A stretch of 33,850 nucleotides of DNA from an uncultured Pseudomonadota bacterium (GTDB taxonomy: Bacteria > Pseudomonadota > Gammaproteobacteria > Methylococcales > Methylomonadaceae), in contig CAINHP010000002.1 of NCBI GenBank assembly GCA_903848905.1, positions 1 through 33,850 on the forward strand, read 5' to 3'. This document shows positions 6,345 through 9,752 of the stretch, one piece after another. Positions within the stretch are counted from its first letter, which is position 1; every line of letters starts with the position of its first letter. Both the position numbers and the translations under genes were made by a program. The notes under the pieces were generated by a model. That model was given only the letters and a program-made list of their open reading frames with translations. It was not told where the DNA came from and did not search any database.

Positions 6345-8015
6345 ATGCCTAAAAAACTGACTTTAAAATTCACATTGATTTCTGCATTTTGTGGATTATC
6401 GTTAATTGGCTCTATCTTGCTCACGGTGATTACGTCGTATGAAGTAAAAAGTTTTATTCGTGAGCAACTGCGTATTCGTATCACAGATACGGCAAATATC
6501 ATGGCAACGCAAATTGAAGGTGAGCTACATCAAAGTATTCAAACCGTTGAAGATGATAAAAGCGATGCGTATTTAAAGCTCAAAAACGCGTTACAAATTA
6601 TGCGCGAACACGGAACAGGCATTGCCAATGCGTATACTATGCGCAAACAAGAAAATGGTGAATTTGCCTTTATTGTGGATGGTTCGGAGAAAGATCAAAA
6701 TGCAACGGGCGATATTTACCCACAGTCTTCTGTCACGCCAGTGCTTAATAGTGCGTTAAATATCAATTCAGACGATAAATCTCCACGAAGCGAGACCGAT
6801 ATTTATAAAGATGACTGGGGTGTTTGGCTTTCCGCTTATGCGCCCATTTTTACGAAATCAGGACAATTTGATGGTATAGTCGGAATTGATGTTTCTGCTC
6901 AAAGCATACAGGATCAAGAGTTTAAATATATCGTGACGATTTCCTCTATTTCATTGGTGTGTATTTTTTTAATGATGCCGCTTGGTTTTGTGTTTGCTAG
7001 TCGAATTCGGCGTCCTTTGGAGGCACTCACCACTGAAATGGAAAAAATTGGTCGGTTTGAGCTTAACGATGAGATTTTTGTTCCTACACGCATTTATGAG
7101 ATAAATAGAATGGTGCAGCGACTTGAGAGTATGCGACGTGGTCTTCGGTCTTTTGAAAAATATGTTCCATCTGATTTAGTTCGGGATTTGATTGAGCTTG
7201 GACGCGATGCAAAATTAGGGGGTGAAAAAAAGAATTTAACCATCTTTTTTTCGGATATTGCGAATTTCACCTCTATTTCAGAGCGATTAGAGCCTGAAAA
7301 ATTAGTCGGCTTTTTGGGAGAATATTTGACGGTGGTGAATGATGCGTTGTCGCAAAATCAAGCGACGGTGGATAAATATATCGGTGATTCAGTCATGGCT
7401 TTTTGGGGAGCGCCTCGCAATGTAGAGAATCCCGCAATAAAATCGTGTCAGGCGGCACTTGAATGTCAACGAAAAATTAATTTGTTGAGTCAAAAGTGGC
7501 AGTCTAATGGGCTTGACGTTGAATTTAAAACTCGAATTGGCATTCATACAGGGGATGTCATTGTTGGAAATATTGGCTCTGAAACACGTATGAACTACAC
7601 AATTATTGGTGATAATGTGAACTTGGCTAGTCGCATTGAATCAGCTAATAAATTTTATGGGACATCTATTCTCGTCAGTGAAACCACGCATCAACAAGCA
7701 AAGAAACGTTTTGTCATGCGACTGATTGATTTTGCAGTTTTAAATGGCAAATCAACGCCTATTCGGCTTTATGAATTAGTAGGCTATAAAGGTGATATGA
7801 ATAAAAATCAGCTTTATCAAATTGAATTATATGAAAAAGCGTTTCATTTTTACACAGAGAAAAGGTTTCCAATGGCTATATTTTTGTTAAATAGATTGCT
7901 TAAGAAAAATCCATTCGATTACGCTGCGTATTTATTACTCGAGCGTTGTGAGAAATATCAACTTTATGCGCCAAGTAAAGATTGGCAAGGTGAGTATATT
8001 TTAGAGGTTAAGTAA
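6345..8015 (+). CDS. Membrane-bound class III adenylate cyclase: periplasmic sensor domain, HAMP-like linker, cyclase domain
   Basis: Two TM segments flanking a Cache-like region; LTIFFSDIANFTSISE, VDKYIGDSVMAFWGAP, TRIGIHTGDVIVGNIGSETRMNYTIIGDNVNLASRIE. The K and T positions fit adenylate rather than guanylate specificity. Confidence 0.9.
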   Translation: MPKKLTLKFTLISAFCGLSLIGSILLTVITSYEVKSFIREQLRIRITDTANIMATQIEGELHQSIQTVEDDKSDAYLKLKNALQIMREHGTGIANAYTMRKQENGEFAFIVDGSEKDQNATGDIYPQSSVTPVLNSALNINSDDKSPRSETDIYKDDWGVWLSAYAPIFTKSGQFDGIVGIDVSAQSIQDQEFKYIVTISSISLVCIFLMMPLGFVFASRIRRPLEALTTEMEKIGRFELNDEIFVPTRIYEINRMVQRLESMRRGLRSFEKYVPSDLVRDLIELGRDAKLGGEKKNLTIFFSDIANFTSISERLEPEKLVGFLGEYLTVVNDALSQNQATVDKYIGDSVMAFWGAPRNVENPAIKSCQAALECQRKINLLSQKWQSNGLDVEFKTRIGIHTGDVIVGNIGSETRMNYTIIGDNVNLASRIESANKFYGTSILVSETTHQQAKKRFVMRLIDFAVLNGKSTPIRLYELVGYKGDMNKNQLYQIELYEKAFHFYTEKRFPMAIFLLNRLLKKNPFDYAAYLLLERCEKYQLYAPSKDWQGEYILEVK

Positions 8016-8095
8016 TGCTTGAAAAACGACAGTTAATAACATAATAAGACTACAATTACAGTGCATTTTCACTTTATCAATATAAAGAGGTATTT

Positions 8096-8335
8096 ATGTC
8101 CAAAAAAAGAGCGAAAAAATCGGTAACGATCGAATTACCCAGTGCGATCAAATCATTCGTGCAAAATCCTGTTGCCAAGTTTGCACATCATTTTAATAAC
8201 GCTGTATTTTTCCGCGATCGTACTGCGTATTCACGCCAAAACAAACACAAAGGCTCTGAGCCTTTCTCTCTATATTTACACGCGGCAGTGACAGTATATA
8301 GAGAAAGGTTCACGCACTTTTTTTTACAATCTTAA
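8096..8335 (+). CDS. ArfA-like alternative ribosome-rescue factor; the annotated 3' part may not be the natural C-terminus
   Basis: 79-aa basic ORF; FFRDRTAYSRQNKHKGSEPF resembles the ArfA core (LFRxRV..KKGKGSYxRKxKHxGxEP); hairpin within the 3' coding part. Confidence 0.55.
   Translation: MSKKRAKKSVTIELPSAIKSFVQNPVAKFAHHFNNAVFFRDRTAYSRQNKHKGSEPFSLYLHAAVTVYRERFTHFFLQS
8249..8265 (-). terminator. Short hairpin, possible radA terminator on the minus strand
   Basis: aaaggct-ctg-agccttt; read on the minus strand it is followed by gtgtttgtttt. Confidence 0.5.
8257..8325 (+). terminator. Long hairpin inside the 3' end of the ArfA-like ORF followed by T8
   Basis: Arms 8257-8275 (tgagcctttctctctatat) and 8296-8312 (atatagagaaaggttca), about 17 bp with one G-U and a 2-nt bulge; T8 at 8318-8325. 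Confidence 0.65.
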
Positions 8336-9708
8336 ATTTCAAATAAAATATCCAGCATTTCCATTAGCGTCGTCACGCCGTAGATTGTCAAACCTGGAAT
8401 GACATTTTTGGGTGCATTGGCTTTAGGAATGACGGCTTTTTTAAACCCATGTTTAGCCGCATCATTTAAACGCGCATGACCGTTTGCCACAGGGCGGATT
8501 TCACCATTGAGTCCCAATTCACCAAAGAAAAACGCTTCTTGCGATACCACTTTGTTTCGCAAACTCGACACGATACAGGCTACAATGGCAAGGTCTGAGC
8601 TGGTTTCGCTAACGCGAATACCGCCGACGACGTTAGCGTAAATTTCATCACTAGCCGTGGATAGTCCACCGTGGCGCGACAGCACTGCAAGCAACATAGC
8701 AAGGCGATTTTGATCAAGACCGACGGCTAATCGACGAGGATTGCCGTATTGGCAATCAGTCACCAAGGCTTGTATTTCAACAAGCAGGGGGCGTGTGCCT
8801 TCCCAAAGAACAGTAACAACGCTACCTGATGAGGGTGTTTCAGCGCGATTTAAAAACATTGCTGAGGGATTTTTCACTTCTTTTAGACCAGCGCCGTCCA
8901 TCGCAAAAAAACCTAACTCCCCAACACTTCCAAAACGATTTTTATCAGCACGTAGAACCCGATAACGTGCATCATCCGTTGAGGCAAGCATCACTTGTGT
9001 ATCGACAATATGGCTAAGGGTCATCGGGCCTGCGAGTGAATGATCTTTGGTGACGTGACCGACCATGAAAATCGACACATTATGTTGCTTGGCGTATTGG
9101 GTGAGATAACTCGCTGATTCTCGCACTTGCGAGACACTGCCAGCGGCCGATTCGCAGTGCGGTGCATACATCACTTGAATTGAATCAATGACAAGCATTT
9201 GTGGTGCGATGTCGTTTAAGACATCACAAATACGCTCCACTGACGTCTCAGCCAGCATGAATATTTTATCAGCGGGTAATTTCAACCGATTGGCGCGTTC
9301 TGCAATTTGCTGAAGGGATTCTTCACCTGATACATACAAGACTGAAATATCGCGTGCGGCAATGTTTGCAATGGCTTGAAGCAAAAGTGTACTTTTTCCC
9401 GCACCCGGTGCGCCGCCAATCAATACCACACTGCCGCGGACAATTCCGCCACCTAAAACGCGATCAAATTCAGAAATTCCGCTGGAAATGCGCTCCGCTT
9501 GTGATAAATTGACATCAGATAAACGTTTTACTTCAGAGTGATTGCCTGCATAACCGCTACTTGGCGGGTGTTTTTCTAAGGCTGCGGGCGCAAGGCGAAT
9601 CTCTTTAATGGTGTTCCATTCGCCACAACTCGCACATTGTCCGTTCCAGCGTGGATAATCTGCGCCACATTGATCGCAGACGAAAGCGGTTTTTGTTTTT
9701 TTGCTCAT
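8332..9708 (-). CDS. radA: DNA repair protein RadA
   Basis: N-terminal CDQCGADYPRWNGQCASCGEWNT zinc motif, GGAPGAGKSTLLLQ Walker A, KNRFGSVGELGFF. MSKKTKTAFVC start preferred over the ORF-track start at 9744. Confidence 0.95.
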   Translation of the reverse strand: MSKKTKTAFVCDQCGADYPRWNGQCASCGEWNTIKEIRLAPAALEKHPPSSGYAGNHSEVKRLSDVNLSQAERISSGISEFDRVLGGGIVRGSVVLIGGAPGAGKSTLLLQAIANIAARDISVLYVSGEESLQQIAERANRLKLPADKIFMLAETSVERICDVLNDIAPQMLVIDSIQVMYAPHCESAAGSVSQVRESASYLTQYAKQHNVSIFMVGHVTKDHSLAGPMTLSHIVDTQVMLASTDDARYRVLRADKNRFGSVGELGFFAMDGAGLKEVKNPSAMFLNRAETPSSGSVVTVLWEGTRPLLVEIQALVTDCQYGNPRRLAVGLDQNRLAMLLAVLSRHGGLSTASDEIYANVVGGIRVSETSSDLAIVACIVSSLRNKVVSQEAFFFGELGLNGEIRPVANGHARLNDAAKHGFKKAVIPKANAPKNVIPGLTIYGVTTLMEMLDILFEI

Positions 9709-9752
9709 GGAGAGAATTCGTTGGATTAAGCGTATTTTTAACAAGAGTTTAG

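Follow-up and report, generated by a model that had tools for sequence, protein, structure and literature searches.

ArfA, BrfA and ArfT are the described ribosome rescue factors closest to the gene analyzed here. ArfA is characterized by RF2-dependent release of peptides from non-stop ribosomes and by becoming essential where tmRNA is missing. ArfA (PF03889), found in Escherichia coli and other Gammaproteobacteria, has a tail region that sits in the mRNA tunnel, and its truncation is tolerated at Asn47 but not after Met40 (PMC5378476). The E. coli arfA gene carries a terminator and an RNase III site ahead of its stop codon (PMC6299226). The brfA gene of Bacillus subtilis has a terminator internal to its ORF, which places it under non-stop control, and its discoverers call BrfA distinct from ArfA (PMC6881298). 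Both of these known factors with an in-ORF arrangement are rescue factors (PMC6299226, PMC6881298). ArfT of Francisella tularensis resembles the protein described below in being very short (40 aa), in showing little overall similarity to ArfA and in having a basic motif at its C terminus; it differs in that neither a terminator nor an RNase III site precedes the arfT stop codon, and F. tularensis and F. hispaniensis are the only species in which homologues were found (PMC6299226).

The window analyzed here is a 33,850-nucleotide stretch of DNA from an uncultured member of the Methylococcales (contig CAINHP010000002.1). On its plus strand, an ORF of 79 codons plus a TAA stop codon (8096..8335) begins with an ATG closely preceded by a probable ribosome-binding site, AAAGAGG (8084..8090, plus strand). 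A gene for a membrane protein with HAMP and guanylate/adenylate cyclase domains lies upstream on the same strand (6345-8015). The neighbor on the other side is the convergent radA gene (8332..9744, minus strand; TIGR00416, 614 bits), and the TAA at 8333-8335 overlaps its end, as the original prediction had described.

That prediction had also assigned the ORF to ArfA by family, an assignment that was rejected. PF03889 (curated cut-off of 25.5 bits) matched neither the window protein nor anything else in its genome, and none of 21 diverse members of the family identified below matched it at E values up to 1. The KGKGS motif, which in ArfA lies in the mRNA tunnel, is absent from the window protein, whose sequence there reads RDRTAYSRQNKHKG. 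The protein instead matches DUF7230 (PF23876) with 58.4 bits (E=7.6e-16; curated cut-off of 27 bits). Its conserved core, NPVAKFA...FRDRTxYxRxxKHKGxEPF, is encoded at 8159..8269 on the plus strand, as located by a whole-genome profile match and family alignments, and the latter give the near-invariant family pattern N.VA..A......F.D...Y.R..KH. By its relatives, the window genome is that of a Methylococcales methanotroph: the closest named ones are two MAGs, one labeled Methylococcaceae and one uncultured proteobacterium, and the other hits belong mostly to Methylomonas, Methylobacter, Methylovulum and similar genera. No ArfB match of the kind expected from NF006718 (RF1-like GGQ domain, above 100 bits) was found in the 79-residue protein. 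Searches of the PDB by sequence and by profile returned no DUF7230 relative, and the profile search returned no ArfA chain. Among open-licence papers, none naming the family or giving its function was found, and no description of DUF7230 was found in those on Methylococcales or on phage-encoded rescue factors.

The 3′ part of the window ORF contains an in-frame RNA hairpin (8257..8312, plus strand), whose first bases overlap the last codons of the core. The hairpin followed by a T8 run ahead of the stop codon was found as originally predicted, with a stem of 22 base pairs (13+6+3) in place of the predicted ∼17. Its minimum free energy is -26.9 kcal/mol (z = -5.0; none of 200 shuffled sequences was as stable), and folding with the flanks gave -34.1 kcal/mol (z = -6.2). 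The T8 run (8318..8325, plus strand) begins five bases 3′ of the stem. Because of this gap the hairpin is not a textbook terminator, and it was not among the predictions of a terminator scan. An Rfam search of the window returned no match.

To place this hairpin in a family context, 140 DUF7230 loci were collected; almost all belong to Methylococcales, and distant Gammaproteobacteria supplied the few others. In 92 of these loci, the ORF contains the whole of the strongest hairpin near its end; in 46 that hairpin spans the stop codon, and in only two does it follow the stop. Among 54 representatives with less than 80% core identity, a set that excludes the two "after" cases and the members outside the order, the hairpin is inside the ORF or across the stop codon in all 54 and reaches -23 kcal/mol or lower in 52. 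Hairpins of -28 kcal/mol or lower inside or across the ORF end were found at 107 of 140 DUF7230 genes, compared with 16 of 250 other gene ends from the same loci. The hairpin starts about ten bases upstream of the end of the conserved core. Relative to that end, its midpoint varies with a standard deviation of 7 nt, against 30 nt for the stop codon.

Covariation indicates that the base pairing of this hairpin is under selection. In an alignment of 40 loci, 17 of 21 pairs show two-sided compensatory changes (score of 0.537), and in an alignment of 22 loci compensatory changes occur in 12 of 21 pairs (score of 0.440). Controls with slid partners scored at most 0.181 and 0.122, respectively, and the real scores were reached in none of 500 shuffles. 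A mobile hairpin element was considered and rejected, as the hairpin sequence varies through compensatory changes at one fixed site.

The stop codon behaves differently from the hairpin. In the 5′ arm after the core, none of 687 in-frame codons is a stop codon, whereas the two other frames have 70 stops in 1298 codons (p = 8e-14); the reading frame is held open as far as the loop. In the loop, the 3′ arm and beyond, in-frame stops occur at about the chance rate. A model in which the in-frame stop falls at a random distance fails on this pattern of depletion in the 5′ arm and none beyond. Sequence conservation also drops: pairs of loci with 81% mean core identity are 38% identical across the next 17 codons, and beyond the hairpin their nucleotides, at 27% ungapped identity, are unrelated. 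The window and its nearest relatives illustrate the drift, with one hairpin and three stop positions: inside the hairpin in one relative (L167), 20 bases past it in the window, and far past it, antisense of radA, in the other (L168). In one group of relatives (family f2; L091, L092, L105, L107, L111, L113, L118), EPFPIR[AV]A is consistently the end of the ORF, and the stop codon falls at the hairpin loop or close to it. The simplest reading of the wandering stop codon is that it would never be used; the window's in-frame TAA (8333..8335, plus strand), whose position varies among relatives, is probably not normally reached.

How the message would lose its stop codon appears to differ within the family. 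The median stem has 26 pairs, and T runs of at least five near the hairpin end occur in 6 of 128 loci; long stems with rare T runs indicate RNase III in most members. In the distant members L008, L009, L119 and L137, short G+C-rich stems are immediately followed by T runs, which indicates termination. The window hairpin may in principle be either kind of site ahead of the stop codon. Its long stem is common to L167 and L168, and its T8 run occurs in neither. Because the T8 run is not conserved even in these nearest relatives, an RNase III-type cut in the long stem is more probable at the window locus than intrinsic termination.

The anatomy of these loci is that of arfA. When 24 true ArfA loci were run through the same pipeline as a positive control, their hairpins also lay inside the ORF or across the stop codon, a placement by which the mRNA would lose its stop codon and which DUF7230, judged by sequence, shares. 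The two proteins are alike in being small and basic, in having a tail with Y.RK.KH and in occurring in tmRNA-bearing hosts. The DUF7230 hairpin starts at a point about equivalent to the truncation limit of ArfA, so that cutting the message there would leave the coding region of the core intact. In a comparison of the DUF7230 and ArfA profiles, the only similarity is short and confined to the tail Y.RK.KH, with a probability of 42-45% and a profile-alignment score of 21.9, which exceeds all 300 column permutations (maximum 18.1). The DUF7230 tail K..Y.RK.KH thus weakly resembles the mRNA-tunnel tail of ArfA. Unlike ArfA, DUF7230 has no PF03889 match, no KGKGS motif and another N-terminal half (NPVAKFAHxFNKA, against DNAIEALLHDPLF in ArfA). 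BrfA, compared by description only, comes from another lineage, and its in-ORF terminator differs from most DUF7230 hairpins, in which the stem is long and no strong T run follows.

The distribution of rescue systems was examined in the window genome and across the order. The window genome encodes tmRNA, which is also present in Methylococcales where checked. It contains no ArfB above cut-off; the weak matches found (best E=5e-8) were interpreted as RF1/RF2. ArfA was found in none of 201 Methylococcales genomes. ArfB is present in 27 of 139 DUF7230-positive genomes versus 28 of 62 DUF7230-negative ones (p = 0.0003, uncorrected for kinship). Complementarity is loose, because 34 of the 201 genomes are without DUF7230, ArfA and ArfB, and the 27 genomes above have both DUF7230 and ArfB. 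In a class sample of 369, DUF7230 (13) and ArfA (6) never co-occur, although these numbers are too small to carry meaning. Overall, this distribution fits a backup role for DUF7230 without proving it. Several individual genomes stand out. DUF7230 is missing in four of six other genomes of the window's genus; at the corresponding loci (L251, L252, L254 and L255), radA is present and a profile search found DUF7230 neither adjacent to it nor elsewhere, consistent with recent gain or loss. Some genomes have two DUF7230 genes (L115 and L116 in G558; L065 and L103 in G461; L114 and L129 in G552). Among cultivated relatives, Methylotuvimicrobium buryatense 5G has a DUF7230 gene (L203), and others occur in Methylomonas species. 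One genome without a DUF7230 match (G540:C1:1914818-1915219) has an ArfB-like frame that is interrupted by a TAA and may represent a broken arfB.

Taken together, we consider it likely that DUF7230 is a backup ribosome rescue factor under non-stop tmRNA control, with a mechanism like that of ArfA and BrfA but from a separate protein family. We infer a non-stop mRNA, its control by tmRNA, a rescue activity and a partnership with RF2. The DUF7230 mRNA would be cut in, or end at, the long hairpin just past the core codons and so carry no stop codon; the architecture is observed, and the event itself is proposed. With tmRNA-SmpB working, ribosomes at the broken end would be subject to trans-translation, and the product would be tagged and destroyed. 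If trans-translation failed, an untagged protein ending near KHKGSEPF would accumulate. Its basic tail K..Y.RK.KH would then sit in the vacant mRNA tunnel, with recruitment of a release factor (probably RF2) for peptide release. The original prediction of a hairpin-made non-stop message, with a coding part ending near KHKGSEPF, is strongly supported by the conserved hairpin position, the covariation, the drifting stop codon and the ArfA-like anatomy. It had further described the last ∼20 residues as a degradation-prone tail; most of this tail is probably left untranslated, rather than made and then degraded. Several findings run counter to the rescue reading: the DUF7230 profile resembles that of ArfA weakly and over a short stretch, the complementarity among DUF7230, ArfA and ArfB is loose, four of six other genomes of the genus lack the gene, and several members outside the order, like the T4-like and Pakpunavirus phage copies, end at an ordinary stop codon without a strong hairpin.

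Three other explanations were weighed against this reading. The least probable, and in our view an improbable one, is that the hairpin is an ordinary terminator, perhaps shared with a convergent neighbor, which overlaps a slightly long frame and exerts no non-stop control. The window gene does converge with radA and has a T8 run after its hairpin, and textbook terminators exist in some distant members. A shared convergent terminator is not general, however, because, among 79 related loci, the nearest long downstream frame (judged by ORF length only) converges on the gene in 37 and runs in its direction in 35. The more specific possibility that the hairpin is radA's own terminator was rejected, since the hairpin stays with DUF7230 where the neighbor differs or is co-directional. 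The scarcity of such hairpins at control gene ends and the lack of any in-frame stop in the 5′ arm also speak against an ordinary terminator, and the stem length and rarity of T runs bring most members closer to RNase III substrates.

The remaining two explanations are both unlikely, to about the same degree, and accept much of the architecture. The message could be non-stop and tmRNA-controlled while the protein has another ribosome or RNA role, such as hibernation or mRNA binding, the hairpin merely coupling its level to trans-translation or RNase III. A small basic protein would suit such a role, the HPF/YfiA model matches the window protein below threshold (E=0.085), and the phage copies sit within clusters of small genes of unknown function. 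However, the YfiA match is below cut-off and was seen in only 1 of 21 members, the well-described genes with the in-ORF arrangement encode rescue factors, and the DUF7230 tail is similar to the tunnel-binding tail of ArfA. It is likewise doubtful that DUF7230 is a diverged true ArfA homologue missed by an over-strict profile, an explanation that differs from ours in ancestry and not in mechanism. The common K..Y.RK.KH tail, similar size and same hairpin position favor it, but the absence of PF03889 matches even at permissive E values, the different N-terminal half, the missing KGKGS motif and a PDB profile search without an ArfA chain speak against it. The tail similarity by itself may reflect homology or convergence, which cannot be told apart here.

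DUF7230 is also carried by phages. The core matches five PHROG families of unknown function (1359, 6310, 4586, 2701 and 5724), and all five phage proteins sampled passed the PF23876 cut-off. With tblastn, one query found 144 phage records and another 296, including Pakpunaviruses, T4-like, T5-like and jumbo phages of Gammaproteobacteria. In the large lytic phages (loci L258-L281), these proteins are nearly always annotated as hypothetical. The PHROG proteins share the core of the bacterial ones, but many terminate at an ordinary stop codon and lack a strong hairpin. Short versions are found, for example, in RB16 and PAK_P1. In T4-like phages and Pakpunaviruses, most copies have a plain stop codon with weak structure, and the jumbo phages CBB, GAP32, Munch, PHA46, SNUABM_44 and 121Q have a hairpin in or at the ORF end. 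In Salmonella phage Munch (L265), a depositor-annotated transcription terminator (503-527) lies wholly inside the DUF7230 CDS (377-529) and reaches its stop codon. The use of DUF7230 for rescue by phages is a conjecture. Tentatively, DUF7230 may be an unrecognised rescue-factor family of Gammaproteobacteria and large lytic phages, in which bacterial copies would be silenced by trans-translation via the in-ORF hairpin, and the normal-stop versions of T4-like phages and Pakpunaviruses might escape this control and supply rescue during infection.

In the bacteria examined to date, at least one route for freeing ribosomes from broken messages is required, and many genomes are without known backup factors. 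The authors who described BrfA and ArfT predicted that further rescue factors exist (PMC6881298, PMC6299226). This family of small uncharacterised proteins is, on present comparative evidence, a strong candidate for a new one, and gives a named, testable candidate for a methanotroph order in which ArfA was not detected and ArfB is often absent. More widely, a conserved in-ORF hairpin combined with a drifting stop codon can flag rescue factors that lack sequence similarity to known ones. The presence of DUF7230 in hundreds of large phages is a further point that calls for explanation.
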